DNA of 64,000 bases from Zymoseptoria tritici IPO323. Lineage: Eukaryota > Ascomycota > Dothideomycetes > Mycosphaerellales > Mycosphaerellaceae. The notes beneath the pieces were generated by a model, which did no database searches, had not been told where the DNA came from, and was given only the letters and a program-made list of their open reading frames with translations. Position 1 is the first letter of the stretch. The number at the start of each line of letters is the position of its first letter. Position numbers and translations under genes: made by a program. The DNA is taken from the NCBI RefSeq assembly GCF_000219625.1, contig NC_018217.1, positions 3,782,001 to 3,846,000 on the forward strand, given 5' to 3'. This document shows, piece after piece, positions 20,031 to 47,750 of this stretch.

Positions 20031-20067
20031 TAGGGTAGGGTTTAGGGTTAGGGTTTAGGGTTAGGGG
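20031..20067 (+). repeat. Interstitial telomere tract (TTAGGG type)
   Basis: TAGGGTAGGG followed by TTTAGGGTTAGGGTTTAGGG and TTAGGGG makes about six G-rich telomere-like repeats, some with an extra T. It directly abuts the LINE 3-prime fragment at 20068. Confidence 0.85.
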
Positions 20068-20619
20068 TTCATTGTACTTGTTTATATAGGCTAGTCTACC
20101 TTTGCACCTGATCTGAACTAAAGCCCCATCCAAGCCCTTGCTCCCGGCTCTTTTGGCCGTCTTTAGAGGGGAGGAAACAGACCCACGCTCCCACGTAAAG
20201 CGCCTCGCGATGTACGGCACCGCAGCTACTCCCAGCCCAACTACGTTTTACGGTGTCCTTTTTACCATCTCCCGAGTTGACTAAACCGCCAAAAAGAGAG
20301 ACTACCGATAGGCTAATCCGCATCCTAACGTACAATATCGCTCCGGTAATCGCTTACCGTCTATCGTACCTTAGGTTTCCAAACCTCCTAGGTAACGGAC
20401 GAGGTGTGCGTCTCCTTATCCGCCCGAAACTATAACCCCGTCTCGTTAAGGGGGAACATCCTGCTTTAAGACCGTCCGGTAGAGCTCTGTCCTCCCTCCG
20501 TCCGGCGTATCTACTGTCGGAGACATTCGATTCCGATCGAGCCGCTTGCACACTAGTCCATAAGTGCTTCCCGAACGGTTTAGGGAGTGCTGTCTTCCCT
20601 TCGGCCAGAATTCCTCCTC
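20068..20619 (-). mobile_element. 552-bp LINE 3-prime fragment between telomere tracts
   Basis: The sequence matches the first 552 bp of the large unit (20639-21190) with a few transitions. Read on the minus strand it is the 3-prime end of the telomere-associated LINE, cut off at its 5-prime side by a new TTAGGG tract at 20620. Such 5-prime truncation is normal for LINEs. Confidence 0.75.
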
Positions 20620-20638
20620 TTAGGGTTAGGGTTAGGGG
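20620..20638 (+). repeat. Interstitial telomere tract
   Basis: TTAGGGTTAGGGTTAGGGG lies exactly between the truncated LINE fragment and the next LINE 3-prime end. Confidence 0.9.
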
Positions 20639-21739
20639 TTCATTGTACTTGTTTATATAGGCTAGTCTACCTTTGCACCTGATCTGAACTGAAGCCCCAT
20701 CCAAGCCCTTGCTCCTAGCTCTTTTGGCCGTCTTTAGAGGGGAGGAAACAGACCCACGCTCCCACGTAAAGCGCCTCGCGATGCACGGCACCGCAGCTAC
20801 TCCTAGCCTAACTACGTTTTACGGTGTCCTTTTTACCATCTCCTGAGTTGACCAAACTGCCAAAAAGAGAGACCACCGATAGGCTAATCCGCATCCTAAC
20901 GCACAATATCGCTCTAGCAATCGCTTACTATCTATCGTACCTTAGGTTTCCAAACCTCCTAGGTAACGGACAAGGTGTGCGTCTCCTCATCCGCCCGAAA
21001 CTATAACCCCGTCTCGTTAAGGGGGAACATCCTGCTTTAAGACTGTTCGGTGGAGCTCTGTCCTCCCTCTGTCCGGCGTATCCACTGTCGGAGACATTCG
21101 ATTCCAATCGAGCCGCTTGCACACTAGTCCACAAGTACTTCCCGAACGGTTTAGGGAGAGCCGTCTTCCCTTCGGCTAGAATTCCTCCTCTAGCGATCGT
21201 CGTCGTCCACTCCTCTCCCCTACTACGCCGTCGCCTTCGCTTTCCTCTAAGCCTCCTACTGCTCTATAGAGGTACTAGTTTTCTTCCTCCCGCTCCCCGG
21301 CTTTGAGAGGAAGCAGCCGCAGATCTAGGGTACACGCCTTACATCTACCGCTGGGCCTTCCGGATAGAGTTAATCGTCCGGTGCGGAGCCAGTCCGGGCC
21401 TCGCTAGTCGCCCACGTCTCCCACGTCGCAGCGCAGCCTTTTAACGTCCTACCGATCGGACGCCTACTTTTATCTTAAGGGAAGAGACTCCTTTTTAATA
21501 GGGTAAACACCCAATTTATCCTCGAGGGATGATCTCTGCTTTTACGTCCCGGGTCGACGGAGCTACTTTACGTCCTACCCATCGGACGGAGCCTTTTTAC
21601 GTCCTACCCATCGGACAGAGCCACTTTACATCCTACTTATCGGACGGAGCTACTTTACGTCCTACTCATCGGACGGAGCCACTTTACATCCTACTCATTG
21701 GACGGAGCCTTTTAACGTCCTACTTAGGACAGTGTGCAC

Positions 21740-24700
21740 TAGGTCTGTGCCGCCGCTTCCTCCGCTTCCTCCTTCGCAGCTTCCTCCTTCGTAATCTTCG
21801 TCGAGATTCGCTCGAGGATCTCGTTAGCTCGCTCCTAGCATCCTGTATTTAGAAGGAAGTCTACCTCGGTAAACTTCGTGTTCGTAGTGCCCATTTTCTT
21901 ATGCATCTTCTGCTTCGCCCGTCGTTCCTTCCTCGAGAGCTAGCTCGTCCTGTTTTCCTAGTAGCAAGTCTCGTGTCCTTAGATGAATTTGCTTGTACAG
22001 ACGCAGAAACCATAGGTATAGAAGGTTCTACGCCGATACTAGAGGAAGCGCTTCTGGAAGGACTGCGGCGCCTTTAAAAAGTAATCGGCTCCTCGTAAGT
22101 CCCGCTTTAGGCGGCTTTCTTCCGGTATAATCCGGGTTAGGCTCCACTTCTTAGCCTCTTCGGCTATATCTTCCTCTCTCTCCTAGCGCAGGAACCGCTA
22201 GACAGAACGGCGGTCTTCGCTAAGGCTTCGGTCGCGAGGCCAGGACTCGGGTGTCTTGCGGTACTTCTTGTAGAGCTTGTCCTCTGTCAAGCGCCGGAAG
22301 AACGCTTTAGGTTTCTAGATTAGTAATCCTAACTTCCGCAGCGGACTTTCTTCCAGAGCGTGCTTCTTTACGACCTAAAAGCCAGTTTTTAGTGCCTTAA
22401 ATCGCGAGGGTAGGGCGGAGATTCCCAGGAGATTGCGAGTAAAGTAAGGGTTAGAAGCATAACCCGAGATCTACTTCGTCAGCTTCGTAACGTCCTTAGT
22501 CGTCTCGTCCTAGAACTTAGGAGAGTCCTCGGCAAACGCCGCGAGGAGAGGCGCGCTATACTCGAACATCGGTGCGAGATACTACTAATAGACTCGCAGG
22601 CGATGCGCGAAGCCCTAACCGTCCGCGTCGAGGGTCAGGAAGTCGCTTCGTTTCCTGGCCTATTCGAGCCGGCTCTTAAGGTGCCTCCTTAAGTTAATCC
22701 CTCGCGCCGTTACGGGAAATCCGAGGTAGGTATATACCTCTCTCCTCGGTACCTCCGCACTAAAGAGGTAGATCGCCTCCTACAAAGACGCCGGTGCTAG
22801 ATAGGCGCATTTTTTAATATTTAGGGCGATGCGGTTAGCGGAGGACCAGCGCTCGAGGATCTGGATTAGTACACGCACCTTGTCTAAGTCGCTAGCGAGG
22901 AGAACACTATCATCGGCGAAGAACAGCGCGCGAAGAATCGGCGGCGCCGCGGGCATTACGTCGGAAGAGCCGGCCAGGGCGAGTGTCCTAGGTCGATTCA
23001 AGTCCTCGAGCAAGCTATCGATAAAGATGTTAAATAGATAGGGCGAGAGGGGTAAGCCCTATAGAACTCCCCTCGTCCGCGGAAACTACTAAGAAGCCGT
23101 ACAATCCGAAACGACAAAGGACCAGACGTCGAAAAAGCAGAGGCTCGCAATTAGAGCTAGCATATTCTCCGGACATCTCCGCTAGCGTAGAACGTCCGCG
23201 AGCAGTACATGATCTACAACGTTAAAGGCGGCTTGAAAATCGAGGAACACGGCGTATATAATCCGGCTCGATTTGAGGAAGGCGTAGACGACTGCGGCGT
23301 TCGTTATAGTAGAGTGGTGACTTCGAAATCCCGCCTAGTTAGGATGCATCCTCGCCTATGTCCTGCTATTAAAGCGCTAGAGGAGCAGGCGCTCGAAGAC
23401 CTTTCGAAACATCGTTACCAGCGAGATCGGACGAACATTATTAGCGTCCTTCGCCGGCATCGTACTATCCTCCTATCGGGTCTTATCCTTAACGACCAGA
23501 CAGACGACAGTTTCGTTCCAGCTCCGCGGCGTCTTACCATTCCGGAGATAGGAATTATAGAAGGCGGCCAGGATCCGGAGGAAGCTCGTCGTCGCGAGGG
23601 TTTTCATTAGACGGATATGTACCCTATCGTTTCCGCAGGCCTTCGTAGCATCCTAGTAGGTAAGCTCCTGTATTATCTCGTCGATCGAGAAGGAGAGCGA
23701 GGCGGATCGATCGTCGATAGGAAACATCTCCTGTACTAGGAGGGTCGCTGTCGAGACGAATCGACCGGCAAATCCCTCTGTTACCTCGTCGATTGCCGTC
23801 ATCCCTCTCGCCTTCCCCGCCGGGGTCGGCACTAGCGGTATATTCTCGTTCGCGCGGCGCTACGCTCTCTTATAGAGACGGACCGTCTCGAGCGTCCCGC
23901 TATTAGCGTCTAGATTCGGCTTCGCTATCGCCTTAAGACGCTAGTCCTTCTTCTTCTTGCCACAGCGGCGTAGCCGCTTTAGCTTGCGAGTAGCGTCGTT
24001 ATTATCCTCAGCTCGCTTTCGCTTCGGGTCTGTTATCGCCTTTCGAGGCCTATCGTTCTTCTCTCTACCTCTATTCTTCTTCTCTCCGCCTCTATCCTTC
24101 TTCTCTCCGTCTCTATTCTTCTTCTCTCCACCTCCGTTACTTATATCCTCCGCCTTTTGTCTACCCAGAGGACGATTTCGACGACGCGCAGAGGCGAGTC
24201 CTAGCACGGCTTCGCTTACCTGCTGGCAGAGCGATATGATTTCCGCATTCCGCTTGTCTACATCGGCGCTCATATAGTACAGATGCTGTCGATGCTGCGC
24301 CCTTCTCTCCTAGCTATAGCAGAGCGCCTACGCCGTATCGTCGTCGTTTAGCCGGCTTATCGCATAGCGTCGAAGTTAATACGGCACGGCTAATCTACCC
24401 GGAGTACCTATAGTTAGGTCTAGCTAGAGGTAGAGCTAGTAGACATAGTCGGTATTCATCTTCTCCGTCGGTCGCGGTAGAGCTAGCGTCGCATGCAGCA
24501 GCGTCCGGCGGACAAAGCAGTAGTTAGTCGTTAGTTGTTTCTCGCACATAGCGTCCGCAATCGTGATCGGCTCCTAGATCGGTATTAGATAGGTTATTGC
24601 GGAGTCCTCGATCTATTACGAGACGACCTTCCGTCTCGGAAGCAGCGACGCCTTCCTGCTCTAGAGAGACATCTTACCAAAGTGGACGTTAATATCTCCG

Positions 24701-25090
24701 AGAACGACATCCGAGCCGGCAACCGCCTTAAGCGTAGACTGGACCTTATCCGGCTTCTACTTAGGGGGAAAGTAGACTCCGCTAATCGTTCCCCGGTCCG
24801 TCGGCAGGGTTATAGCGTCTGTCCTAATAATCTACGCCTCGCCGGTGAGCTAACTTCGCGCGCGTACTGTCCCTATTACCAGAATCCCACAGCCCAAGCG
24901 ACCCTTTCTTGGCACTATATCGGGCTTTACTATAGTCGCAATTACGCGGTAATCCGCTTAGCGCTTCTTATGCTCGACGAACTAGGTCTCGACGATAAAG
25001 AGGTAGTCGAGGACGTCGTTGTTAATTAGCGCCGCTAGGATCGGCTACCTATTATCCCCCAAGCCCCGGATGTTAATATATCTAATCCTA
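21740..25090 (-). pseudogene. LINE ORF2 (endonuclease + reverse transcriptase), copy 1
   Basis: Reading the minus strand with stops read through: INIRGLGDNR and DYLFIVET (endonuclease start, about 25085-24990), VLGDINVHFG (catalytic GDxN motif, about 24700-24674), FLDFQAAFNVVDHVLL (reverse transcriptase, about 23260-23215), RGVL.GLPLSPYLFNIFIDSLLEDL (about 23085-23015), and LFFADDSVLLASD with the catalytic FADD at about 22926-22908. The C-terminal part is charged and Glu/Ala-rich. TAG/TAA codons interrupt it throughout. Confidence 0.8.
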
Positions 25091-25099
25091 GCATTCCTC

Positions 25100-26400
25100 C
25101 TAGTCTCGCGACCCGCGAGAGGACTCGCCTCCCCCGGATGCCTCTCGACTCTCTCTCTTAGAGGATGCTCCTCGAGTCTCTCTCTTCGAGCCTAGGCTAT
25201 CCTCCCGTCCCGCCGGCTCCTCTTCTAGCCCCTGCCGTATTAGCTCGGCTTTAAACTCGTCGAAGACGCCGGCACTCTTTGCCTTCTGCCGCACTACTTG
25301 CCTTTTGAATTTGTTATCGGCTTCTTCATAGCAATCAACGAACTCGCGGACCTAATCCGCAGACAATCTTCTAGGAAGGTTTACAAAGCGGGGTTAGAGT
25401 AGTTTCCGCTTACGGTCCGCTAAAGGAGAGGTCGGTTTCGTTTGTAGCTTCGGCTCCGCGGAGAGAATCCAGAAGGTCTTCGCTTTTGGGGAGGGCGTTA
25501 CTAGTTCGGCACGCGCGGCTAGGTCCGCGATCTACGGCCTCTACCGTCCCGACGAAGAGAACAGAAAGGGAGTAAGCTCCTTTGCCTTTGCAGGAGAGGG
25601 CGTGTCCGGAGAGGGCATAAGGGGAGGAGGGACGGATGCCGTAGAAAAGGGCGAGAGAAGGTTGTAGTCCTTACTAGGAAAGAGGTCGTAGGGTCGCACC
25701 TCGGGAGGAACACTCTTCCCTCCGCGCTTCTCCTTAACGGAATAGTACAGAAGACTCTTCCTCTACTATCTCTCCTCGATCGACTCCGCTCGCGCGTCGT
25801 TCCGGCTAGGCGGTAGGGCTCTGTTCGTAGCGGGTCTCGATTCCTTCTAGTGCTCGCTCGCGCCGTCTTTAGGTCCAGGAGGGTCCGGAGGATCTTCACT
25901 CGAGCAATAAGGAGGACCTTCGTCCGAGCAATAAGGAGGACCTTCGCCTAGGGTGTACAGGAGGCGGTCAACCGATCGCTTCGTCTCCTTCGCTACGCGG
26001 ATTAGGCAGGCCTCGGCGTATTTCTAAAAGAAGGGTATCTATACGATAGGCTTCGGTACAGGGTCGACTGGAATCGCGGCAGGGTCGGTCTCTAGGACGA
26101 GGACAGTAGGGATCGTTAAGGGGATGTCGATAGAAGGCAGCCCGGTTAAAGGGATGTCGGTAGGGAGCCTCGTAGAAGGAATGTCTATAGAAGGAATGTC
26201 TATAGAAGGAAGATTCGTCGACGGAATCTTCGTCGAAGGGATGCTCGTAGAAGGAAGATCTGTAGAGACAATATCTAGGAACACGTCCTCCTTACGCCGG
26301 ATCGTCTTCCTTAACCGACAATCCGCGGACGCAGTCTCGATCGAAAACTCGGACTTAAGTGCTCGCTTCGCCGGCGCGGTTACCGGCTCCTCTAGTCGAT
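25100..26400 (-). pseudogene. Probable LINE ORF1 region, copy 1
   Basis: Upstream of ORF2 the minus strand reads a charged segment (ADNKFKRQVVRQKAKSAG, then ELIRQGLEEEP and a Ser/Arg-rich end) and, further 5-prime, a repetitive IPST.LPS.DIPS tract of about 80 residues (26284-26039). Low complexity and a basic C-terminus are compatible with a LINE ORF1, but I recognise no RRM or zinc knuckle. Confidence 0.4.
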
Positions 26401-27777
26401 CTTCAATCTAGGTAACGAGCTAGGCTGTATCCTTACTACGGTTACGAAGCTGGTCCAGGATCGTTTGCGCTACAAGTATAAGTCTCGACCAGCCGATTTC
26501 CGCGGTAACGCTCTTAATCCACGCCTTAACAGTACGCCTTTTGTTTGTACAACACTTCTTATACTCGAAGGTGCGGTAGTATCGTCCTTCTGTGTCGGGA
26601 TGTCCGGTCTTGTTCCTCAGGACGCCAAAGTAGTTAATCTCGCCGCCGCATAGGATAATGCCCTTATAGAGCTCCTAGAGGGCGTCCGCAAAGGCCGTCA
26701 GACCTTCCTAGGGCCGTACCGTGCTCGTCGACGGTTTGGATAACATCCGAAGGTTAGAGGGCAGAGAGGGCAACGCCGAGGGTAGAGGGGAGGAGGAAGC
26801 TACAAGGAACGTCGAGGGAGAGGTCGGCGAAGTAACGAGTCGGGATCGGTAGTAGGAGGCACTCGAAGGAGAGGGCAACCTAGGCAGAGAGTGCTTACGG
26901 ATAGTTCGAAGTCTCTACCGCAGAGGAAAACCGAGGCTAAGAGCGTAAACGGATAGTAGCGAGGCTCCAGAGAGGAGGGAACACATCCGGCTCTTATAGG
27001 GCCGGGGTGTGGTCGTCCTTCTTACAATTACGAGCAGGGTTAGCCTTACGATCGTCGATAGTTATCGTCGATAGCCATCCTCTTATCTCGCCGTCTACTA
27101 GGGTCTACGGCTTAATTAGAATCGTTACACTCGACGAGGTGGTAGTATAAAGGGCCACCCTCCCCTCCGTACTTACTCGTCCTACTCGTCGTCTCTTCCT
27201 CCACTCCCCAGTCTAAGAATAGGCTATCCCCGGCATCGTTATATCGTCCTCTCTAGGCATCGTTATATCGTCCTCATCTCGATACTATCCTATCCTACTA
27301 GGCCTATATCCTCTTTATCCTCCCGTCTTCCTCTCCCTTCGCCTAGCTCGTCTCCGGTCTCGTCTATTACCTTACCGTCTCGCTTTCGAATCTCCTATGT
27401 CCACGTCTTCTCCCTCCTCCTCCTCCGCCCTACTCTCGTTAATCTATTCTCCTTCGTACTGTTCTCGTACCCGAGCCGTCCTCTATAGGCCGTTAAATCT
27501 ACGTTAGACTTGCTATCCGCGTATTTTTGCCAACGAGGAGCTCGACGACGTAGTGTAGTGCTCTCCCGTCGTAGTAATTCCTACCTACATTCAGCACTAC
27601 CCCCTCCTTATCGGGCACCTAGTAGAAAGCGTAACAAAGCTACACGTAGTAGCGCTAGCGTCGCAGGCTCTTATATCGTAGGACTTCTATGTCCGTAGAG
27701 GTTTCTACGGTGGCTGTTCTTAAGCGTCGAGCAGGAGGTGTAGGCCGCTTACGTGTTCGGCTGCTGGGTCAGCTCTC
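26401..27777. other. Degraded sequence upstream of the LINE
   Basis: No clear gene. A short plus-strand frame starts at 27397 (MSTSSPSSSSALL) and runs to about 27720 with two internal TAGs, including LDDVV and IPTYIQHYPLLIGHLVESV. It may be a decayed small gene but is unrecognised. Two ATCGTTATATCGTCCTC words lie at about 27235-27275. Confidence 0.35.
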
Positions 27778-28410
27778 CGCCCATCCTAGCATTAGGCGAG
27801 AAATCCGCCTAGCGGCAAGGTAGGCTGGAAATCCGCCCATCCCGGCATTAGGCGAGAAATCCGCCTAGCAGCAAGGTGGGCTAGAAATCCGCCTAAGGTG
27901 TAGAAGCTAAAACGGAAATTCCGACATACAGTCTAGCAGCGACACCTCAAGTTTCTCGACCTTTTTTAACACTACAACAACGATCTCAAATTAAATATAG
28001 ACACATAGAAAGGAACTTCTTATACTAGAGTTACTCTCCGTGTTCTTAGAATCTTTGAAATTAGCTATATACGCGAGATACGAGAGGTAAAAGCAGAAAG
28101 CCATAATTCTTAGAAGTTTCCGTTTTGCTTTTAGGCGGAGGCCGCCCATCCCGGCATTAGGCGGAAAATCCGCCCAGCGGCAAGGTAGGCTAGAAATCCG
28201 CCCATCCCGGCATTAGGCGAGAAATCCGCCTAGCGGCAAGGTAGGCTGGAAATCCGCCCATCCCGGCATTAGGCGAGAAATCTGCCTAGCAGCAAGGTAG
28301 GCTAGAAATCCACCTATCCTAGCATTAGGCGAGAAATCCGCCCAGCGGCAAGGTGGGCTAGAAATCCGCCTATCCCGGCATTAGGCGAGAAATCCGCCCA
28401 CACCCGTAAT
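27778..28410. repeat. 56-bp minisatellite, interrupted, copy 1
   Basis: The unit CCCATCC.GGCATTAGGCGAG followed by AAATCCGCCTAGCGGCAAGG and TAGGCTGGAAATCCG repeats with a 56-bp period: two units at 27779-27892 and about five at 28144-28408. A non-repeat stretch of about 245 bp separates them. The motif AAATCCGCC recurs twice per unit. Confidence 0.85.
27893..28135. mobile_element. Possible MITE inserted in the 56-bp array, copy 1
   Basis: The interrupting segment begins CCTAAGGTGTAGAAGCTAAA followed by ACGGAAATT, and the reverse complement of its end begins CCTAAAAGCAAAACGGAAACTT. These imperfect inverted ends (CCTAA..GC.AAACGGAAA.TT) fit a small terminal-inverted-repeat element. No clean target duplication was identified. 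Confidence 0.4.
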
Positions 28411-29466
28411 CTGTAGCCGGCCTGCCCTAGCATCGTCTATATCGTGAGAAGGGTAGACTTCAGCTATAGCTCCGGAAAGCGATACAATCCGCGTTTAGGC
28501 GGAGGAGGTAGAGCAGTTCGTAGTGCAGGCTATAGAGGCAATCCTAGCGGAGGAGACGGCGAGGTTGTAGCAGAGAGGGAGGAGTCTTAGCGGGAAGTTC
28601 AGCAGTGCGCCAATTGGTCCTAGCGACCGGACACGGACCCTCCTTAGTCAATTAACCAAGGTATAGGGCTTAGAGTTTATAGTCGACTAATTAGAGGAGC
28701 CGGACGGGTCTAGAGCAGGGCTCTTTCGACAACTCGCTAGACCTCGTCTCCTTCGCGCTTCCTCTTAACTATCGAAAATCCTCCTTAAGGGTCTGCCGAC
28801 TAGTCGGGGCGAACAGACGAATTCGAGGCTCGTCGTATACTTTTAGAACCCAACTTCTTAACCTTACGACAGGTTCTTTCGAAACTAATACAAGCTCCGA
28901 GTGCGGGTTATAACAAGAAGAATTGTCTGTTTTCAATCTTCGATATCATATATATCAGATCTTCATTCGCCCGCTAGCAGATTTGGATTGCACGAAATCC
29001 ACGTCGGAGTCTAGGAGATGGAGGAGTTCGGAGTAGAGGAGACAGCGAGGTCGTAGCAGAGAGGGAGGAGTCTAGGTAGGAAAGTTCAGCAGTACGCTTC
29101 TATATCTACGTAACCGGGCACGGACCCACCTTAGTCAATTAACCAAGACGTGGGGCTCAGAGTTTGCGGCCAGCTAATAGGCAGGGGAGGACGTAGCGGC
29201 CCTCCCGTCGCGGCTGATTCGTCTACGCGACCGGACACGGACCCACCTTGGTTAATTAACCAAGACGTAGGGCTTAGAGTTTGCGGTTGACGAATCAGAG
29301 GAGCCGGATAGGTCTAGATCGAATCTATACTTGGATAACTCGCTAGACCTTATCTCCTCCGCGCTTCCTCTTTACTATCCTCTTCCGCGGCAGTACTATG
29401 TCTTGCTCGGGTGTTGTTAGTTATAGTCGAAACCCGAAAATCCTTCGTAAAGGGTCTGCCGGCAAG

Positions 29467-30456
29467 CAGTAAGCTTATTGTATTGTATCCTTGTTGTATT
29501 GTATTGTATTGTCGTATATATAGCTGTCGTGGATCCTTACCTTAAGGCTAGTGTATTATATTGTCGTGCTGTACGGCTAGATACAATACAGCTGTATCTA
29601 GTAATAGTAGGCATAGTTTTAAGGGCTATGTTTATAGTAGTGTATTAGGAGGTGGTGTTTTCAGAGGTGTATTCGGAGTCTGCGCCGGTGTTGTTACACT
29701 GCATAAACAGAGTCTGCACCTGAGAAGTTAGCTATTAATCCACTGCTCTTATAACTATTGTAACAACACTATTGCTATTAACATAGCCTTATCTTCAGCC
29801 TTAACACCCTCGACAGCAGGCTGGCAACTGCTACTACGTAAGGATCGCACCTCCGACGATATTACGCTTTGTAAGAGTAGCGCTGTATTCGACAAGGCCC
29901 TTTAGCCGGACTCCTTTAAGATCAAGGGCACTGAATACACTCGTTGTGCGAACGCACACCACTATTCGACGCTATTGCTTAGTAGATAGCTCGTCGCCGT
30001 CAGTAGCTATGCCTCTTACGAATGGCACTCGACTGCCTTTTAGTCCCCCTTATAAGCAACAACCCTAAGCGCTTATTTAGCTCCGGCAGAGATATAATTA
30101 ACTACCGCCGTTCACAGCTCTATAGCGACATTATCGAAGCTTATACGTTCCTTCGCAGTACATATAGACCTCCAATTAAGACAACAAGAGCCGGAGCAAC
30201 AACACTAGCATTTGACGACGACGAGGACATTAAGAAGTCTATAGATGGTCAGACAACAAGCTCATTTATAAGCGATACAACAGCCGGCTTTACAACCTTC
30301 TACACTACTTAAGGAGACTTATAAGCAACAGTAGTGGACGATAAGGTCTAAGAGTGTTGTATACAGTGGATATCTACTATATGTTGCTAAGATACACGTT
30401 GTATTGTATTGTTACTACCCTTATATATAATACAATCTAATATAACAAGCTTACTG
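29467..30456 (+). mobile_element. hAT-family DNA transposon remnant, copy 1
   Basis: This 990-bp element has inverted ends: CAGTAAGCTTATTGTATTG on the left, and on the right the reverse complement CAGTAAGCTTGTTATATTAG. It is flanked by a perfect 8-bp duplication, CCGGCAAG, at 29459-29466 and 30457-30464, which is the hAT hallmark length. The related block at about 28786 lacks the insertion and acts as an empty site. Inside, 30022-30312 encodes the hAT C-terminal dimerisation region (MALDCLLVPLISNNPKRLFS then SGRDIINYRRSQL). The rest of the transposase is missing, so it is internally deleted and non-autonomous. Confidence 0.85.
30022..30312 (+). pseudogene. hAT transposase C-terminal (hATC) fragment, copy 1
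   Basis: The open frame reads LISNNPKRLFSSGRDIINYR, matching the conserved P-E-R-x-F-S-S ... R-R-x-x-L core of hAT dimerisation domains, then EAYTFLRST and an acidic tail. Only the last part of a transposase is present. Confidence 0.8.
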
Positions 30457-31089
30457 CCGGCAAGTCGGGGCAGCAAGACGAATCCGACGCTCGTCGCATA
30501 CTTAGAAAACCTTACTTCTGAACCTTGTGATAGTTTCTTTCGCAACAAAGACGGGCTCCGAGACCGGGCAATTACGAGAAGAACTGTCTATTAAAAATCT
30601 TCTATGTCGTATCTATAAGAGCTTGTTTTACCCTCGAGCAGACTCGGATTCAACGAAATCCGCGTCGAGGCGGACGAGACAGAGGAGTTCGCTGTATAGG
30701 AGATAGAGGCAATTACCGCGGAGGAGGTCGTAGAAGGGAGGGAGGAGTCCGGGTAGGACAGTTCAGCAGTGCGCTTCTAGGCCCACGTAACCGGGCACGG
30801 ACCCACCTTAGTCAATTAACCAAGACATAGGGCTTAGAGTTTGCAGCCAGCCAATAGGCAGGGGAGGACGCAGCGGCCCTCCCGTCGCGGCCGATTCGTC
30901 TACGCGACCGGACACGGACCCACCTTGGTTAATTAACCAAGACGTGGGGCTTAGAGTTTGTAGTCGACGAATCAGAGGAGCCGGACCGGTCTGGATTAAA
31001 TCTATACTTGGATAACTTGCTAGACCTTATCTCCTCCGCGCTTCCTCTTAACTATCCTGTCCCTCCGTAGCCCTTCCGCCTACGTCCTC

Positions 31090-33799
31090 GTCGTTCAGAA
31101 AGGTCGAAAACGACGAACCCTAGTCGACGTCGGTTACCGCATCGCTAGGCTGCAATAGGACACTCGGATCGCACGTCCGCGGCCTGCCGTCCTCGCTGCC
31201 CGAGAATTCAAACTGCTGCGTTAGCGACAGCTCGCGATACCTGCGCATCTCGAGCCGCAGGTTCGCAACATACAGTTTCGCAGCAGTTCGCGCACGGTTA
31301 TAGTACCTCTACCTCTGGAGTCGCTCGGCCGTCGGCGCAATCTCCGGCCGTACTCGACAGATAAGATAGACCTAGGCGACAAAGACGGGAAGCGGGATAG
31401 TGTGCTAGATGTAGGACAGATCCCTCCCGAGGTTAATAAGGAGCAGGGCGTTAAGGTTTAGAACCCTTACGAACCTCCTCCAGCGCCTCCCTACCTTAAT
31501 CGCACGCTTAAAGGCGTTCCATTCCGTCCCCAGGCCCTCCTACACTACGTCCTCTTTCGTAAAGCCGGCGGGGAGTCTGTTGGTCTAGTCCGGACGCATC
31601 TCCCGGAAGAGGGCCCCCCTCGCAGAGGGCGTTTTGTCCGGAAGTACCATCGCTGTCGTCTACGACGATCCTCGCGGCAGGAGCTTCTTATAGAGGTCTA
31701 GCTAGTCCGCTAGGCGCACCGTCGCGCAGCGAAACTTAAAGTTCGACTGCCAGATCCCCACCTCGCAATCTACGGCTGTACGGTACTCCCAATATGCTAC
31801 GGCGACTACCTCCCGCCTCTCCTCCTGCCTCTCGTCCTCGACGAACGCTGTCTCCCCCTTGTCCCTATCCCGCCGGCATAGGTCTTAACTCTGTTACAAA
31901 AAGCCTTGCCACTTGTCGATTACGATTATTCCTATAGTCCTACGAGCAATAGCGAGGCATTTCTCGAAGTGCTTCTAGAGACCTAGGTCGACCTCCTGTG
32001 TTTTCCGTAGGCTTTACGCGCTCACGTAATGGTCCTTAGCGCTGCCGGCGTTGTCGGCGACGTCCTAAACAAAGTCATACTAGAGGCGGTAATCCGGGTA
32101 GGTAGGGGAAATGCCTCCCACTCCCTCCACACCAGACACGGCGCCCGCCGCCGTAGGATGCTAGCGGAGCTACAGGAGGCCCTCCGCACATCAGGCCTTA
32201 GCGCCGGCTTCGGATAGTTAGTAGCGGACAGTGCAGGGCGGAGGGTTTTAACGTACTATAGGGCGGCTAGCGAGTATCTTCCTAAGAATCCGGCGTCCCT
32301 CTAGTGCTTACAGGAGGATCTAGTCCTCCTCTATCGCTTCTAGAAGGGTCTGGTCTTTCCCTAGTATTCTCTAGAACATCCGACGTCCCTCTAGTGCTTA
32401 CAGGAGGATCTAGTCCTCCTCTATTGCTTCTAGGAGGGTCTGGTCTTTCCCTAGTGTTCTCCGGAACATCTAACGTCCCTCTAGTGCTTACAGGAGGATC
32501 TAGTCCTCCTCTATCGCTTCTAGGAGGGTCTGGTCTTTCCCTAGTATTCTCTAGAACATCCGACGTCCCTCTAGTGCTTATAGGAGGATCTGGTCCTCCT
32601 CTATCGCTTCTAGGAGGGTCTAGTCTTTCCCTAGTGTTCTCCGGAACATCCGACGTCCCTCTAGTACTTCTAGGTAGGTCTGGCCCTCCTCTAGCGTTCT
32701 CGGGAGGATCTAACCCTTCTCTATCGCTTCTAGGTAGGTCTAGCCCTCCTCTAGCGTTCTCGGGAGGATCTAACCCTTCTCTATCGCTTCTAGGTAGGTC
32801 TGGCCCTCCTCTAGCGTTCTCTAGTCTGCTATTCCCCTCCGGATCCGCAGGGTCCTACTCTCTTGCTTCCGCTACTGCTCCCGGTTCTCGACCTATTATC
32901 TTATCTACAGTCTTACAGGAAATAGTCGATCTTAGGGTCCCCTTACCAGACTTGCGCTTCTATAGCAGTAGGTCCTTTAGTACCTTAAGCTACATTGGCC
33001 TCTACTTCGGATACCTTTTTAGGTAACAGAATAAGGAGGCGGCCCTTACCTTAGCGACTACGATCTCCTCGGGCTCCCCGTTGCCGTCGTCGCTACCGTT
33101 GTTAACAGCGTCTTCGTCGGCGTTGCTTTCTACTACCTACCGCGGCAAAATAGGCTTCCGACGCTTCTTTAACAGCTGCTCGTCTTCCGGCTCGTTTTCT
33201 TCCCCGTCGCTCTCCGCCAGCTAGTCTTCCTCTACCCTGTCTTCTATAGTAGGTTTGGAGTACTTCTCTCGACGAGGAGAGTGTCGAAGGGGTAACGTCG
33301 CTAGGCAGCTCCGTACGCGGCAGTCGTCCTGCTTTCGCTTTCTTCCTAACGTAGGAGCTATCTCCTTACTACCTGCTTTGCCTAGTACCGGCTACGCAGA
33401 GGAGGGATACTCTGTATACGCTAGCGGAGGCGAGGAGGTCGCGCGTAGGCGTTGTTGTCCCCGCCTTTCCGCTCCTACTACCGACGAGATCTGTCGGCAG
33501 GCCTTCTCTTCGAAATATCGTGACATGCACTAGCGGACCTCCTTGTTTATACGAGTCTCTATCTCTTTCTCCGTATATAGCCTTAGTTGCTCCTTAGCCT
33601 AAGCCTCGGAGACGGCAAACGGTTCCCGAAGGCGTTAGGATCCTCGAGAGAGACAGCAGACCTCGCAGCGGTCCTAGGCCTTATTAGCGCGAACAATAAC
33701 AAAGTCGTTCGTATCGCCGGCTCGCTGTTCGGTCGCCCGGAAGAGCGCGTCCAGGATGTCCAAGGGAATTTGCACTACTCCGTCTACTTCGTTAAGCAT
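31090..33799 (-). pseudogene. Unrecognised decayed gene with internal amino-acid repeats, copy 1
   Basis: From an ATG at 33799 (MLNEVDGVVQIPLDILDAL) one frame runs with few stops through an acidic, nuclear-looking region (KKRRKP near 33165, then NADEDAVNNGSDDGNGEPEE) and through the 60/90-bp repeats, which it reads without stops as GPDLPRSDREGLDPPENARG-type units. After about 32300 the readable protein shifts to another frame (DNAGSAKDHYVSA, KHFEKCLAIARRTIGIIVID, NALLLINLGRDLSYI, RYRELSLTQQFEFSGSEDG), which suggests an intron or frameshift. I recognise no family. TAG/TAA codons at likely Gln/Trp sites indicate RIP decay. Confidence 0.5.
32295..32825. repeat. 90-bp then 60-bp coding minisatellite, copy 1
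   Basis: ACATC.GACGTCCCTCTAGTGCTT recurs at about 32377, 32467, 32557 and 32647 (90 bp apart). TAGGTAGGTCTGGCCCTCC recurs at 32671, 32731 and 32791 (60 bp apart). Both periods are multiples of three, which fits a protein repeat on the minus strand. Confidence 0.9.
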
Positions 33800-33864
33800 C
33801 GTTAGTAAGTAGGCGGTTAGGAAGGTTACAGGAGGAGGCGACTGCGATAGATAGGACTACGGAG

Positions 33865-34280
33865 AATTCGATTAGGGAGGAGGCGATTACGGTAGATGCG
33901 ACTGTGCTACGATTGCGACAGATGCGACTATAGAGGATTCGAGGAGGAAGGAGGTAATTGCGGTAGATGCGACTGTACTACGATTACGACAGATGTAACT
34001 ACGGAGGATTCGAGGAGGAAGGAGGCGATCGTGCTAGATGTAACTGCGCTACGATTGCGATAGATGCGACTACGGAGGATTCGAGGAGGGAGGAGGCGAT
34101 CGCGCTAGATGCGACTACGCTACGATTGCGACAGATGCGACTACAGAGGATTCGAGGAGGAAGGAGGCAATCGTGCTAGATGCGACTGCGCTACGATTAC
34201 GACAGATGCGACTATAGAGGATTCGAGGAGGGAGGAGGCGATCGCGCTAGATGCGACTGCGCTACGATTGCGACAACAAA
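33865..34280. repeat. 71-bp minisatellite, copy 1
   Basis: GATTCGAGGAGG.AGGAGG recurs at 33936, 34007 and 34078 and onwards with a 71-bp period, about six units. Each unit also holds GCTACGATTGCGACAGATGC. The period is not a multiple of three, so the array is probably non-coding. Confidence 0.9.
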
Positions 34281-34803
34281 GGCTCTTCGGAGGATCGGGT
34301 TAATTAAGGCGGCTACAATGCGAGAGAAGAGGTAAGGAGGAAGAAGGCTATAGGGAGGAGAATTGCGATTCGGTTTGTAACTTGTTAGAAACAGAATAGT
34401 TATAGAGAAGAGAACTCCGAGGAGGAAGATTACAAAGAGGAGGAGAGAGTGCATAGCATAGGCAACAACGGCGTAAACTCGTAGGGATCATCCTTCTCCG
34501 CTGGGTTCGGCAGAAACCCTAAGCTAGGCCTAGGGTAGGGTAACAAAGCCTAACCGGACACGGTTCCTAGAGGTGCCTTAGTTCTCTTAGGCACGGATAA
34601 CCCTCTGTGCTATCCAGCCCTCTACTTCGAAAGCTACGCCCCCAGCGGCGAGAACCGCTGTAGAGAACTATCCGCAAGAGCAAGGACTTTTGAGCCGCCC
34701 TCTCCAAGCATACGAAAGAGCGAGGAACGCTAAACCCTAAATACGAGAGGCCTAGGCCTAGCGCGATGCCGTAGCCGGACAAGGAACAGTCAAGGAGGAC
34801 CTT
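34281..34803. other. Spacer with no recognised gene, copy 1
   Basis: The sequence between the 71-bp array and the repeat flanking the methyltransferase shows no domain-bearing frame. Some plus-strand purine-rich sequence continues to about 34450. Confidence 0.35.
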
Positions 34804-34890
34804 AAGCGTTCGTAACAACACTTAAGCGAAGACTCGGGTCATATGCCACCGCCCTTAAGTAGGCGTACATAAGTAATCTCGAATATAATC
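34804..34890 (+). repeat. Left direct repeat flanking the methyltransferase, copy 1
   Basis: AAGCGTTCGTAACAAC...CATATGCCA..GC.CTTAAGTAGG...TAATCTCGAATA matches 39625-39714 in the same orientation, with mostly C/T and G/A differences. The two repeats bracket the methyltransferase. Confidence 0.75.
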
Positions 34891-34929
34891 TATCTCACTT
34901 CTACTGTTTAAATTTGACAGCACTAATAC

Positions 34930-37900
34930 ATGCCATTCGCGATGGCGGCTATTATAGGCATTAAGGTGCAGGCGCGGTTAAAAGTTAATAGCTAGAACAT
35001 CCTTGGTCGCACTTCAAAGCTTCCAGACCACACTTTATTAACTACCTTACGAAGCAACGTCTTACCGGCAAGTTGCGCGCATTCCTTTTTACCTCTACGG
35101 ATATTCGTTTTGCAGATATCTTAGTCTGCTATTTCTTCTTTGCTTCGGCAGATTATTACACTACGTACACGGCTTGCAAGGTAAATAGTTAGTGCATTTA
35201 CTCTTGGACTTTACTTGCAGCTCTAGCACTCGCATTGTGCGATTTGGCACACTTACCGCGGACGGACTGCTTCGAGCAACGAAAAGAACATAGCGCCTTT
35301 GTAGCGAGACAGCGGCATTCTTAACCCTATTACTACCTCGCACACGACGGCATTAAGCAGCACGGCAACTATAAAGAGACGGATTAGCGGCGACACGATT
35401 GTTATTTAGGATGACGAGGACAATATTATAGTAGGACCTACTTCGAAGCCTTCTAAGAAGCCGCGGCTTTAGAATAGACAATTGCAGATAGACATTTTAC
35501 GCGCTAGAGCTTCCCTAAGCAATGCAATTATAATTAGTCCTACAGCTTCTAAGCAGGACCGAGGCGAGTCGAAACAACAAGAAGAAGATAGAGTGCAGAG
35601 AGCGGTTTAGTATAAGATAGAATCGGGCGAGGAGCAGACAAGCCAAACGGTCGGAGATTAGGAAGTTAAGGACCAGGGCCTACTACGCACGCCCAGACAA
35701 CGAAGGCTTAGGACTGCACTTACTCCTCCAGCGACCGAAACAGAACTAGGGGACGAGCCTGCTACTAGAGCAGAGCCTGGGGCCACAGCTCGTTCTAGGA
35801 AACGACAGCAGCTTCGCTACTTAAGCCACATCTCTATTGCAGGACTAGCATTTCCGAGAAGCGCTTACTACGGATACAAACCTCCTTTGCAACCTATAAA
35901 CGAGGTCGAAGCAAGCCTAGACTTAAGTGCAGGCTTCTTCGCAGCTGCGAAGTCTACTAGCACCGAAACTCCGGAATGTACTACTTTCAAACTCGATCAA
36001 TTCTCGGTATACATAGCGGACAGACGACGCGCATTAGACCTCGTTACTCTTAAGAAACTGCGGCAATTAAACTATACAGAGTTCTGTTTCGATAGCATTC
36101 TATCGGCAGGCAACGAAAAGCGCTACGTACAGGGTATACGGTTTAAGATCTTAGCTATTAGTAGGTACAGCGACCTAGACTTCACAGATTTTGCCGGTAG
36201 CATCTGCATTTAATCGAAGCTACAGTCGAAAGCGTCCGCTCTATTTAGTTATTAGTACAAGCTAGGAACGCCTACACTGGAATATCGTCGATTCTACGAG
36301 CCGTTCCTTTAGCTAGCACAGTTCGGGAAGCACTTCGTCGACTACCTCCTTAGCAACTAGCAGGTTACCCTTAGACATTTCCGCAGACGATTTTACTAAT
36401 AGCTAACTAGACTCTACAGCGATAAAACTAGCTTTAACTAATAGCTAGCTAAATGCAAACTTAAAGACTTCCGCACGACCATTGCCGCAAAGGTCGGCTT
36501 CCTTTAGAAAGAATGCTAGGATATCAATAACAAAGAGTCTAGATTATGCCGACAACCGATCTAGGGTAAAGTTAATCCCTATAATCTTACAGCTATCCTA
36601 GCGCAGCCAAACAAGGAGTTGCGAACGATCGTCATGCCTTTTGTCTACTAGTGCTTTCGACATATGTACTTCGGTAACTAGCTAGAAGAGCGGACGATTA
36701 CAGACCGAAATGTGCTAAAGAAGTCGGATAAGCTAAAAGCAAGGCTTAGACTAACGCCGCGACGAGCATCTCCGAGTGCACCGCCAATACAAACCTTAAT
36801 GCCTAGGAGTATGAGCCGAAGCGAACCTCAAGAGGGGAACAAAGCAGTCACGGTAAACACAGGGGATGTCGTATACGTCGCGCCGGATATAAGTACTAAA
36901 TAGGGGATTAAAGCGCACGCATAGTATGCCTATGTTCAGAACGTACATACTCGCAAAGATCATACTTCGCTCGATGTTCTCTAGCTGTACGAGCTAAAGG
37001 ACACTACACTTAGCAAAGCCTATTACCCTTTTGCGAATAAGCTCTTCTTATCCGACAACTACAGCTACGGCACATCGGCTCTCGACCTGGATTGCGTCTT
37101 AGATAAGGCAGACGTATGTTAGTATACTAAGGATCTATATCAGCAGGGAGGACACTTCGTGCGCCAGAAGTTCCGCACAGTTCACGAGCAAGATATATAC
37201 GACTTCGTTGCAATTTAAGCAAGCGACTTTAGGTGCTAGTGCAAGCATAACGTTCCTATATTCGACGAGTGCCGGAGCAAATATGCAATTAGTAACACCG
37301 TCCTCGTCCGCGAATAGAATAACGACCTTAACGAGGACCGGCTCTAGCCAGCCCAAATTATCGAGTTCGATACCTAGAAGCGGCGCGTCGTTCTACGTTA
37401 ATTCTTGCGGAAGAGCGAGCAGCAGACGGGCGCGAAAGCTAGGCCGAACGAGCTAGTACTTACAGACGTCGTGTTTAACAAAGCATACGACAAAATCATC
37501 CGGAAGTGCCATATATACTGCTTTCGTAAAGACTAAATCGATTCTAGAGATATTGTTACGCTATACGACCGAGACGGGACTAGCGATTTCTTTTACCTCG
37601 CCGAAGACCTTTCCGCAGCACGAGATAGTTTCCTACTAATAAAAGAAGGATGGAATCCTAATATACACTACAGCGAGAAAATGGTCGGAATGAGTCTCTT
37701 CTACGGTAGTAGAACCTTTAACTGTAGCTTGGAAGAAGCCGGTATTGCTAGATTCAAGTATACCGCCGACTAGAATAAACATACGTTGCACAGCTACCAG
37801 GCAAACGTTCGACGGCCGGATAGAATAGAGTATTTCCTAGGCTCAGTTAACGACTTGCTTACCAGAGCTATAGCGGGCGACCTAATGTCGAACATCGCGC

Positions 37901-39342
37901 AGCCAGGAGATATTTACATTCTCACAGGCGGAAGTCCATACCCCGGATTTTCGATGCTGCAGCTCTTTAAGCTTAGCGAGCAGTCTAAGCAGAACGCTTC
38001 GCTAGTAGCGTCGATCGTGTCATTTGTAGACTTCTACGTCCCGCGGTACTTCCTCCTTTAGAACGTTGTTACGATAACGGCCGGGATAGGACCGAATAAA
38101 GATCAGAATGTGTTTTCACAAATCGTTGCGGCCTTAGTCGCACTTAGTTATTAAGTTTAGCAATTCCTAGGCGATGCCTGGTCGCACAGCAGTCCACAGT
38201 AACAATCACGAGTGTTTATCTCTACTTCCGCTCCTAGTCTGCCGCTACTGTTGCTAATTCCTTACAGCTACAGTTATCCAAACATAAGCTTCAGAAGTCG
38301 TGCACTTAGCTTCTCGAGCAACGGCCTGCCTTTCGGCAGTCGCAAAGACGAGTTTACTACGTTCCTACACGTTACTCCGGCGTAGGCTTACGCCGACTTG
38401 CTAGATATCGGAGATGCGCAACCGCAGCTTTGCCTGCAATTCCCAGACCATCGGACTATGTCGCTAGAGTCGGCAACAAACTAAATACAGATAGCGGCTA
38501 TGCCTACTCGACCGCACAGGATGGGTCTTATACAGGCCAAATTGCTCGGGCTTCTACGCGGAGAACCCTTAACATTCTGCGACAACATTAACGCAACCCG
38601 TCGGCAGGAGAACTCGAGAATGTTTTCGCAAATGTTCCCAAATAGCCTCTTTCCAACTATCGTTACTAAGACCGCTATCGGAGATAGCATTAATAGACGT
38701 TTCATACACTAGTCTCAGAATCGGATCTGGACTGTTATAGAAGCGAGGCGAGCTCAGGGCTATTAAGACTGGGAGGTTCTAATAGGTAGCCCTACTTAGC
38801 AACACAAGATCGTCGGCAACAGCGTTAACAGGAAAGTAGCGCTCGTGCTAGGTCTGTCTTTACGAGAGTCGTAGGAGCAAGCTCGATCGCAGTTATTGTT
38901 TCCAAGAGCGAGTAAGATCCGTAACGAGCATGTCGAAAAAGAGATAGGAACCGATATTACCGTAGAGGCTTCGCAACCTACAACGCCAACTAAGGACGAA
39001 GACGTCGAGATCGAAGGAAATTCAAGCTCGGTCGCTACTAGAGGTGCGCTTAAAGAAGAAGAGCAGTTACGAGCCCTAATAGCACTATCGACACCTTAAG
39101 TTAGTCCCAGCGCTTGCCTAAATATTAAAGAATTAGACAATCGTACCGCCAAAATGCTGTTATTTATGCCGGAAGAGGTCGGCGACGTTAATAGCCTCGA
39201 AGGCGGAGAGTTCTAGGAGAGCCTTAAATTGCTCTAAGAATAAAAGCTCGCACATATAGAGCAGATGTACAAATTCAAGGTCGAAGTAAGTACAATAGCG
39301 TAGCTAAAGTATTATAATCGTCCAGCTAATTCCAGCAGGTGA
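34930..39342 (+). pseudogene. DIM-2-like DNA (cytosine-5) methyltransferase, RIP-inactivated, copy 1
   Basis: One frame from the ATG at 34930 stays in register for about 1470 codons, close to the length of Neurospora DIM-2, interrupted by about 49 TAG/TAA codons mostly at likely Gln/Trp positions. In order I see: a replication-foci-like region (FKLDQFSVYIADRR, YVQGIRFKI, about 35990-36200); a BAH-type region (GDVVYVAPDIS at about 36860, KAYYPFANKLFLSDN, HFVRQKFRTVHEQDI to about 37210); and the catalytic domain. In the latter, motif I is degenerate (MSLFYGSRTFNCSLEEAG, about 37690). Motif IV reads GGSPYPGFS, so the catalytic Cys (PCQ) is Tyr at 37939-37941. Motif VI reads LL-stop-NVV. NGLPFG and GNSVNRKVA (motif X-like, about 38820) follow. 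No intron is needed. The C-terminus runs into a repeat at 39316. DIM-2 maintains cytosine methylation and promotes CpA mutation of repeats. Confidence 0.88.
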
Positions 39343-39426
39343 ATAATCGAATTCACGTACTATCACAAGCCTCGAGCTAGTAACTGCCGGCGCGGGGTAG
39401 AATTTACCAGCAGGTCGCCCTTCTAA
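39316..39426 (+). repeat. Direct repeat beside solo LTR, first member, copy 1
   Basis: AATCGTCCAGCTAATTCCAG...ACTGCCGGCGCGGGG...CCAGCAGGTCGCCC matches 39756-39866 (440 bp downstream, same orientation) with scattered transitions. It overlaps the last codons of the methyltransferase frame, so the native C-terminus may have been replaced by repeat sequence. Confidence 0.75.
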
Positions 39427-39596
39427 TTAAAAAGCGGAAAAGAATAATACTAATTTATAAGGGCGAAGGCCCTCAAGCTATATAGACTAACTGAAACGAG
39501 CGAGTTATGTAATAATGACGAGCCTTTAAGTGAAACAGTGCCCGAGGCTTCAAGGGTTTAAGTAAACCTAAGCGAGGTTTTTAGTGTTTTTAAACA
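39424..39596 (-). repeat. Solo-LTR-like element, copy 1
   Basis: The reverse complement starts TGTTTAAAAACACTAAAAACC and ends near TTTTTAATTA, matching the unit at 12146-12309. It stands alone here, inserted beside one member of a direct repeat pair. No exact target duplication is visible. Confidence 0.55.
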
Positions 39597-39624
39597 TCCT
39601 CCCCTTTGGTGAATGCGTAACCTC

Positions 39625-39714
39625 AAGCGTTCGTAACAACCTTAATTAAAGGCTTAGGTTATATGCCAATGCTCTTAAGTAGGTGTGCGTAATCTCGAAT
39701 AAACGAGCGTAATC
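39625..39714 (+). repeat. Right direct repeat flanking the methyltransferase, copy 1
   Basis: This is the partner of 34804-34890. The pair is about 4.8 kb apart and encloses the methyltransferase and the solo LTR. Confidence 0.75.
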
Positions 39715-39755
39715 TAGGAGGTCCGTAATTGCTCGGAAGGTAAGGGCTTAAGTGC

Positions 39756-39866
39756 AATCGTCCAGCTGATTCCAGCAGGTAAATGCTCTAATTCACGTAC
39801 TATTACAAGCCTCAAGCTGGTAACTGCTAGCACGTAGTCGAATTCACTAGCAGGTCGCCCCTCTAA
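39756..39866 (+). repeat. Direct repeat beside solo LTR, second member, copy 1
   Basis: This is the partner of 39316-39426, with about 85 percent identity by eye. Most differences are transitions. Confidence 0.75.
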
Positions 39867-40101
39867 GGGCACAAAAGCGACTACGTTCTTCTTTTCAAAC
39901 CCTCTCTCTTTTATTAACTTCCGCAATCCTTTCCTTCCCTTTCCCTTAGACCTTTACACAGTCTACGATTACCACCTCTTACGACAACACACTACCCCTT
40001 ACCTCTAGCAACTACATACCTATACCTTCTACCACGACTGCACTCCCACATCGACAATCGTCCACACTATCATCGACATAGCTGCTCCGGTCTTCCCTAA
40101 T

Positions 40102-40803
40102 ATGCATGCCCTAAACCAAACTCTGGACGAGCGCCAAATAGATCAGAACTTCCCTAACTATGCTCCCGCCAGTCTGACCAAATTCAAGAGAGATCTCCTA
40201 CGGCAGGTCCACGAGACTGCCGCCCGGGACAAACCTATTATTCCTAGAATGACTAGTATGCCGGGCGGAGCATATAACACCTAGACCAGATTCCTACTCT
40301 TTAGGTCGGAGGAAAATAAGGACAACTTGGTGCTGCTTCCCGGTGCTCTTCGGCTATATAGGGCCCCGGTCTACGAGGAGACTTAGGATTACAAGAGGGC
40401 TGCGGTAGAGTACATAAACTAGCTGGATTTCTCTAACCTCTGCTGGACTCCCCAGGTGCAGGGAAAGACTCGGGCTTAAGCGGAGCAGGACATCTCCCGC
40501 TTCGTGTTTCGGCCTAGCTATGCAGCCCTTACTCCCGCGGAGCAGGGGGTAGCGGCCGGTTACCTAGGCAGGGCGCGCGACAATCTTATCCGGAGAGCGG
40601 TGCACAAGCAGAGGATGGATCTCCACGACCAGGGACTAGCCTAGGCTCACATTATAATAGTACGCACTCCCCCTGTCCTCTACGCAATGCCGACCTAACC
40701 TCGTCCCGCAGCCGTAAAAGGGAGAAGTCTTCCTCCGGAACGGGGGGAAAGGGCGCAAGATCCGAGGAGCGCTTCTCCTTTCCTTCGATGTAGGCTGCCG
40801 TGT
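40102..40803 (+). pseudogene. Weakly mutated unknown gene ending at a telomere tract, copy 1
   Basis: From the ATG at 40102 (MHALNQTLDERQIDQNFPNY) the frame reads about 60 clean codons. It then meets TAG at 40282 and a few further TAG/TAA codons up to the telomere-like tract at 40809. Many Gln (CAA, CAG) and Trp codons survive, so it is less mutated than its neighbours. Readable segments include LTKFKRDLLRQVHETAARDK, VLLPGALRLYRAPVYEE and AALTPAEQGVAAGYLGRARD. I recognise no family. A pyrimidine-rich leader (39930-40090) looks promoter-proximal. It may be a gene truncated by chromosome breakage. Confidence 0.5.
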
Positions 40804-40808
40804 TATGC

Positions 40809-40822
40809 TTAGGGTTAGGGTT
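40809..40822 (+). repeat. Interstitial telomere tract, copy 1
   Basis: TTAGGGTTAGGGTT. Identity between the two large units drops sharply just to the right of this point. Confidence 0.75.
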
Positions 40823-47741: not shown

Positions 47742-47750
47742 GCATTCCTC

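Follow-up and report, generated by a model that had tools for sequence, protein, structure and literature searches.

The window examined here (64,000 nucleotides; C2:3782001-3846000 of Zymoseptoria tritici IPO323, where contig C2 comprises 3,860,111 bases) holds two long copies of a long interspersed nuclear element (LINE). Both lie on the minus strand, and the 3' end of each directly abuts a tract of the telomere repeat TTAGGG. The first of these, copy A, is preceded by a layered structure in which a telomere-like tract, a LINE fragment, a second tract and then the 3' end of the long copy succeed one another between positions 20031 and 20639. This order, described in an initial annotation of the same DNA, is confirmed from the window sequence, and the reported orientation (LINE on the minus strand, 3' end on the G-strand tract) holds at all three junctions in the window. 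Considered together with a survey of the whole genome, the arrangement leads us to favour, with moderate confidence, a model in which the LINE adds itself to chromosome ends by reverse transcription that would be primed on the 3' end of the telomeric G-strand.

The element and its surroundings

The element is a LINE of the apurinic/apyrimidinic endonuclease (APE) type, at least 8.35 kb long, in which a first open reading frame (ORF1) is followed by an ORF2 with an N-terminal AP-like endonuclease, a reverse transcriptase and a C-terminal Cys/His motif. Three features by which such LINEs are recognized are present: the reverse transcriptase is of the LINE type, the endonuclease lies N-terminal of it in the same ORF, and 5'-truncated copies share a common 3' end (80 copies, described below). 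Position 28987, taken here as a provisional outer limit of copy A, is the point at which the copy at the right end of C16 meets its terminal telomere cap. ORF1 forms a single open frame of 657 amino acids in the copy on chromosome 21, and a homologue search with it found none. The reverse-transcriptase domain RVT_1 is present in all 37 homologues scanned; the best profile match is R2 (7e-34), with LINE-1 ORF2 also matched (8e-32), and the FADD motif of the copy A reverse transcriptase lies in the frame at 22783-23058.

Since the element's own 208-residue endonuclease piece found no match in Pfam or PDB sequence searches, the assignment relies on its homologues and on a structure prediction: as modelled, the endonuclease of the closest intact homologue shares its fold with the endonucleases of LINE-1 and TRAS1. 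Pfam searches at an E value of 0.1 gave no match for ORF1, for the endonuclease piece or for a 439-residue middle piece of ORF2. A C-terminal Cys motif occurs in 34 of the 37 homologues. The motif set of the restriction-like endonuclease (REL) elements has been defined as CCHC, RHD/N and R/KPD or RAD (in the relevant text of PMC12857005); a crude motif test, which looked for RH[DN] together with [RK][PA]D among the 220 C-terminal residues, was positive in none of the 37. Families missing from the VIA-align list were not counted as excluded. The in-frame N-terminal endonuclease, together with the negative result for the REL motif set, supports the proposal that this fungal telomeric LINE is of the APE type and distinct from the REL-type MoTeR elements. 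Among chromosome-end elements of fungi it is unusual in carrying the remains of an ordinary-LINE endonuclease.

The initial annotation had also pointed to a recurrence of the junction at 43266-43290. The tract, the LINE and its orientation are indeed found there, but the site belongs to a 22.65-kb block copied by recombination, and the junction is therefore weaker evidence that cannot be counted as a separate insertion. On self-comparison, positions 20621-41330 and 43271-64000 are 99.1% identical, and the inner tract and flank at 43290 differ from those at 20620.

Table 1. Features of the window, with strand and basis of assignment
Feature	Position	Strand	Basis
Telomere-like tract, 37 nucleotides, irregular units TAGGG and TTTAGGG	20031..20067	+	sequence, tract parsing
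LINE 3' fragment, 553 nucleotides, 5'-truncated, TTAGGG directly after	20068..20620	-	95% identity to the LINE copy at 20639
Interstitial TTAGGG tract, 19 nucleotides, TTAGGGTTAGGGTTAGGGG	20620..20638	+	sequence, tract parsing
Duplicated block of 22.65 kb, made up of LINE copy A and about 14 kb on its distal side	20621..43270		self-comparison; repeats from 43271 to the window end at 99.1%
Copy A of the LINE (long, at least 8.35 kb), with its 3' end at 20639	20639..28987	-	copy comparison
Reverse transcriptase and C-terminal part of ORF2, copy A, stop-broken	21802..23898	-	52% identity in tblastn with P0001
APE-type endonuclease part of ORF2, copy A, stop-broken	24175..25188	-	tblastn with P0001, 35% identity, E 1e-46, reverse-transcriptase frame
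ORF1 remains, copy A	25103..26674	-	open pieces 25103-25351 and 26423-26674 resemble the C21 ORF1
Tandem repeats, LINE 5' region	27776..28398	-	multiple offset matches to the C21 copy
Interstitial telomere-like tract, 24 nucleotides, inner edge of second block	43266..43289	+	sequence, tract parsing
Long LINE copy B, inside the duplicated block	43290..51638	-	self-comparison, copy comparison
Reverse transcriptase and C-terminal part of ORF2, copy B	44453..46549	-	tblastn with P0001
APE-type endonuclease part of ORF2, copy B	46826..47839	-	tblastn with P0001, 36% identity, E 7e-48

Several other features accompany these. Repeats of about 600 bp, 82% alike (28793-29381, 30454-31058, 51444-52032 and 53105-53709), stand beside or beyond the LINE 5' region and may belong to the LINE. 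In the distal part of the block, both strands are open over an internally repeated stretch (32282-33026 and 54933-55677). Centromere-proximal to the first tract, in DNA of low G+C content, lie the remains of a distantly related reverse transcriptase of another LINE (16548-17723, plus strand; 23% identity to P0011).

Copies, junctions and chromosome termini across the genome

A 28-nucleotide pattern from the LINE 3' end, allowing up to three mismatches, was used as a probe of the whole genome (39,686,251 bases in 21 contigs). It matched 80 sites and its reversed control none, while the same end preceded by TTAGGGG (31 nucleotides, up to three mismatches) matched 79 and its reversed control none, so that the LINE-telomere arrangement is not a product of chance. 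The probe detects just those copies that keep the 3' end with at most three mismatches, and very diverged copies or internal pieces could escape it. Longer queries returned at least 46 matches for the last 552 bp of the LINE (40 of 72 candidates scored) and at least 41 for 4 kb of its body (37 of 51 candidates scored); these counts are lower bounds, and no internal copy is among the matches listed for either query.

None of the 80 3' ends is farther than 85,375 bp from a contig end, all face the centromere, and between them they occupy 34 of the 42 contig ends. A preponderance of internal copies with other flanks, which the initial annotation had named as the outcome that would speak against telomeric insertion, was looked for among the 80 and is not what the genome holds: none of these 3' ends is internal. 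Open reverse-transcriptase frames of other elements do occur chromosome-internally in the same genome (for example at C2:964926 and C2:3612619). This distribution, read from the end states of one genome, agrees with telomere-targeted retrotransposition.

When the left flanks of all copies are aligned, as the initial annotation had suggested, the same LINE base abuts the telomere-repeat GGGG at every one of the 80 junctions, and TTAGGGTTAGGGG(G) precedes it at 72. Over the first 45 junctions read, each position from -1 to -13 is the same in at least 42 of them, and conservation decays beyond. The inner tracts measure 13-59 nucleotides at 76 junctions, including 34 of 13-19 nucleotides; the other four parse as 0-7 nucleotides and look mutated or short. 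No poly(A), a mark of the R1 clade to which TRAS and SART belong, was found at any of the 80 junctions. It is likely that the 13-nucleotide TTAGGGTTAGGGG is encoded in the LINE RNA, a statement held at that strength because the tract lengths form no sharp peak (at least 13 nucleotides in 76 of 80, but 13-14 nucleotides in only 10). In the 66 tracts that have three or more units, irregular units (TAGGG, TTTAGGG and others) were tallied moving away from the LINE; at the first four positions before the last unit they make up 8/66, 18/66, 16/39 and 9/16, values consistent with tracts that were started on broken DNA and over which the LINE came to lie afterwards.

The 5' break was read and falls within 1 kb of the 3' end in 29 of the 80 copies; it lies beyond 1 kb in 26 and outside the read sequence in 25. 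Twenty of the 29 short-break copies reach TTAGGG repeats within 30 nucleotides, with breaks at 18 LINE positions, and in eight of these 20 the break is the contig end itself, where 25, 77, 92, 227, 276, 320, 487 or 708 nucleotides of LINE lie below the terminal array. Two further termini end in the LINE, at LINE position 2680 (C5 left) and 8349 (C16 right). The termini that were read had been picked for a nearby LINE 3' end. Such a 3' end occurs within 9 kb of 13 ends, of which all but C19 left were read: 10 terminate in LINE sequence and two (C7 right and C20 left) enter other DNA. At the left end of chromosome 1, four layers are stacked (about 320 nucleotides, about 8.0 kb, 506 nucleotides and another long copy), and this stack and the 20 capped breaks bear out the layering, with 5' truncations running into telomere repeats, that was first proposed from the window.

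The LINE pieces at C7:2664456 and C20:6856, truncated at 322 and 349 nucleotides, share one non-telomeric sequence beyond their breaks. Before C7:2664456, a LINE tip of 14-17 nucleotides (its boundary is ambiguous) stands between two tracts, and is possibly an aborted reverse transcript.

Comparison of 79 inner flanks (that at C1:27259 was too short) yielded 20 related pairs. In the pair C1:26903 and C1:62513, the flank is 96% alike and the junction point and tract length are the same, which identifies a duplicated locus; the neighbouring copies at C1:27259 and C1:62869 also read alike. The two intervals concerned (C1:26903-27259 and C1:62513-62869, 35.6 kb apart) each comprise two layers of the LINE whose flanks and tracts correspond, and mark a large duplication in the left subtelomere of chromosome 1. 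The junctions at C19:537688 and C2:3802638 lie at an almost identical point in LINE sequence. In other pairs (for example C7:357 and C9:18864; C15:23052 and C9:2142307; C1:6088355 and C2:3825289), one sequence has been capped at differing points.

The copies differ in their degree of mutation. In the last 230 nucleotides, 63 polymorphic columns are C/T or G/A and 4 are transversions; the contexts of the former are CpA in 28, CpG in 21, CpC in 11 and CpT in 3. CpA leads, as expected of repeat-induced point mutation (RIP), but with CpG close behind. Short copies (under 400 nucleotides, with at least 10 sites; C9 right was dropped for having too few) carry, on average, fewer mutations than the long ones (13 copies compared with 51; one-sided Mann-Whitney p 0.002), a comparison that is only indicative because the copies are not independent, 15 truncated copies of 400-984 nucleotides fall in neither group and the break is unread in 25 of the 51. 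Exceptions are C1 right (0.286) and C8:15288 (0.556), set against a median of 0.27 among the 51. Six copies of up to 246 nucleotides (C9 right, both on C11, C10 left, C7 left and C9:18864) differ from a long copy by 0 or 1 nucleotide, a result of little weight for pieces below 100 nucleotides.

Proposed end addition and its alternatives

The observations that an account of this element has to accommodate (the fixed 3' junction, the orientation, the confinement to ends, the truncations into TTAGGG at contig ends, the stacking and the APE-type endonuclease) are each shown by the present analysis. In the account that we favour, the LINE RNA would end in, or pair with, the C-rich complement of the telomere repeat, and a short TTAGGG tract would supply the primer, its G-strand 3' end being extended by reverse transcription from a single fixed base of the 3' untranslated region. 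Synthesis would frequently halt early, leaving 5'-truncated copies from about 14 nucleotides upward; telomerase would presumably re-cap the new end, and further copies could land on top of it later. A second process, recombination between ends, has spread large blocks that start with the LINE; the window's 22.65-kb block is one of them.

Several results weigh against this account. ORF2 is broken by stops in all translated copies (C21, C9 and both window copies). Nine of the 29 truncated copies have no TTAGGG after the break, although some of these are strongly mutated and their alignment may have stopped early. The rise in irregular units with distance from the LINE gives way further in to mixed values (3/12, 4/6, 2/2 and 0/1, all small numbers). 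Only half of the eight terminal pieces look fresh: some end pieces appear recent and others do not, since C9 right, C11 right, C10 left and C7 left stand 0-1 nucleotide from a long copy (25-227 nucleotides compared), against 10/276 at C1 right, 10/320 at C15 right, 22/487 at C4 left and 22/599 at C5 right. The block in the window shows, in addition, that recombination also moves ends, so that the junctions are not all independent insertions. A nick made inside a tract, finally, would leave nearly the same trace as priming at an end.

This last point introduces the first alternative, that the endonuclease cuts within a longer TTAGGG tract and the LINE inserts there in the manner of TRAS and SART, the distal TTAGGG then being the old telomere and not a new cap. 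The encoded endonuclease, whose predicted structure has a TRAS1-like fold, would suit such a role; TRAS1 and SART1 act by in-tract insertion (as described in the part of PMC7265360 that treats them), and six of the 10 LINE-ending termini were read by eye as having no clearly irregular unit near the start of the cap. Yet the other four caps (C5 left, C16 right, C9 right and C5 right) are irregular near their start, like tracts begun on non-telomeric DNA, 34 of the 80 inner tracts measure only 13-19 nucleotides, and the absence of poly(A) departs from SART1. We regard in-tract insertion as unlikely.

The second alternative dispenses with recent reverse transcription: an old tract-LINE junction would have been spread by break-induced replication, in the manner of Y' elements, and the ends then eroded and healed in various ways. 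Chromosome ends have indeed exchanged blocks that start at the LINE, as follows from the near-identical tandem duplicate in the window and from the distal piece of the block, which has 15 near-full-length matches in the genome, all close to ends, in addition to partial ones (an internal match lies at C10:1541075-1542067, and weaker internal ones on C13 and C15). In Magnaporthe, the same mixture of processes, break-induced replication together with MoTeR truncation and the formation of new telomeres, is documented (in the portion of PMC7367193 that deals with it), and the four older terminal pieces, which are 3-5% away from every other copy, are hence not fresh. Erosion of spread copies sits poorly, though, with the position of the breaks, given that eight of the 10 LINE-ending termini break in the last 0.71 kb of an element of at least 8.35 kb; the ends were LINE-selected, yet those 10 come from all 13 that have a 3' end within 9 kb. 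LINE pieces of 14-17 and 25 nucleotides, and the repeated capping of the same sequence at different points, likewise count against it, and spread by recombination without new insertion is in our estimation also improbable. The idea that the whole 22.65-kb block is itself one element was rejected, as LINE copies stack at about 8.0-8.5 kb and the distal piece is also found internally.

A third alternative assigns the LINE to the endonuclease-lacking Penelope-like elements. This proposal dates from 2014 and draws on a terminal place, orientation and 3' TTAGGG resembling those of telomeric Penelope-like elements (as given in the text of PMC4522978). It is highly improbable, because homology between copies runs far past 3.4-3.5 kb into an APE-type endonuclease in the reverse-transcriptase frame (an endonuclease-lacking Penelope-like element would have none except GIY-YIG), the reverse-transcriptase profile matches R2 and LINE-1, and the IPO323 table in PMC7181583 lists 1 Penelope, 0 CRE and 376 Tad1 entries.

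Each block copy also carries the stop-riddled remains of a DNA methyltransferase (PF00145) on the plus strand (37690-38226 and 60341-60874), and similar remains occur at seven further sites, each about 15-18 kb nearer the chromosome end than a LINE 3' end; LINE sequence has been noted to flank most extra dim2 copies in Z. tritici (in the relevant part of PMC8016269). Extending the model of end addition, it is conceivable, as a more tentative proposal, that this ordinary-looking APE LINE acts as a healer of chromosome ends in a fungus that retains TTAGGG telomeres, priming where such ends are short or have just been healed, with no need of its endonuclease, and leaving cDNA stubs of about 14 to several hundred nucleotides, and that the resulting tracts seed the recombination that spreads subtelomere blocks, dead dim2 copies included.

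Relation to known telomeric elements

The present LINE is very probably the 'Family 4' of Dhillon et al. (2014), a subtelomeric non-LTR (long terminal repeat) element of Mycosphaerella graminicola (Z. tritici) with 34 full-length and 49 truncated copies. According to the passages on it in PMC4522978, Family 4 is found only in subtelomeres, has TTAGGG at its 3' end, points that end away from the telomere, and was described as a putative endonuclease-lacking Penelope-like element of 3.4-3.5 kb. The two descriptions agree on place, orientation and TTAGGG, and differ in the size of at least 8.35 kb, the ORF1 and the APE-type endonuclease found here. As far as those passages go, localisation and orientation were thus already published in 2014, and what is new is the APE classification, the larger size and the layer-by-layer anatomy of the ends.

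End-on addition of stacked elements with their 3' ends toward the centromere is the mode of HeT-A and TART in Drosophila, whose ends lack telomerase-made repeats, whereas TTAGGG was read between the layers here. SART1, like TRAS1 an element of Bombyx mori, carries poly(A) and is inserted within TTAGG repeats, not at the very end; the present LINE has no poly(A), and its truncated copies form termini. The initial annotation had taken both TRAS and SART to point their 3' ends toward the centromere, which is wrong, as the two enter the repeat in opposite directions (in the section of PMC7265360 concerned). That comparison and the reading of 43266 as an event of its own apart, the earlier interpretation of a telomere-bound, layered APE-type LINE is supported, and the overhang that it took for the primer is a probable one.

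The fungal counterparts of the element belong to another class. MoTeR of Magnaporthe oryzae resembles it as a telomeric non-LTR element with its 5' end toward the chromosome end and with truncated copies that bear telomere repeats, and FoTeR of Fusarium oxysporum as a fungal telomeric non-LTR element, its 3' end bearing TAACCC repeats; both are REL-type (as classified in the text of PMC12857005), with a C-terminal endonuclease, in contrast to the N-terminal one of the present LINE. Cnl1 of Cryptococcus groups with MoTeR (in the grouping presented in PMC12810828). A search of the open-licence literature found no published description of an APE-type telomeric LINE in a fungus, the fungal telomeric LINEs that it did find being of the CRE/REL type or grouping with such elements.

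If the APE classification and end addition are both true, APE-type LINEs would have taken up telomeres in fungi as they have in insects, beside the REL/CRE elements, and the element would no longer serve as an example of Penelope. In the genome of Z. tritici, whose telomeres consist of TTAGGG repeats, one could then read, layer by layer, how ends were lost, healed and extended by the LINE, and a retrotransposon would be tied to the amplification of blocks that carry inactivated copies of the dim2 methyltransferase.
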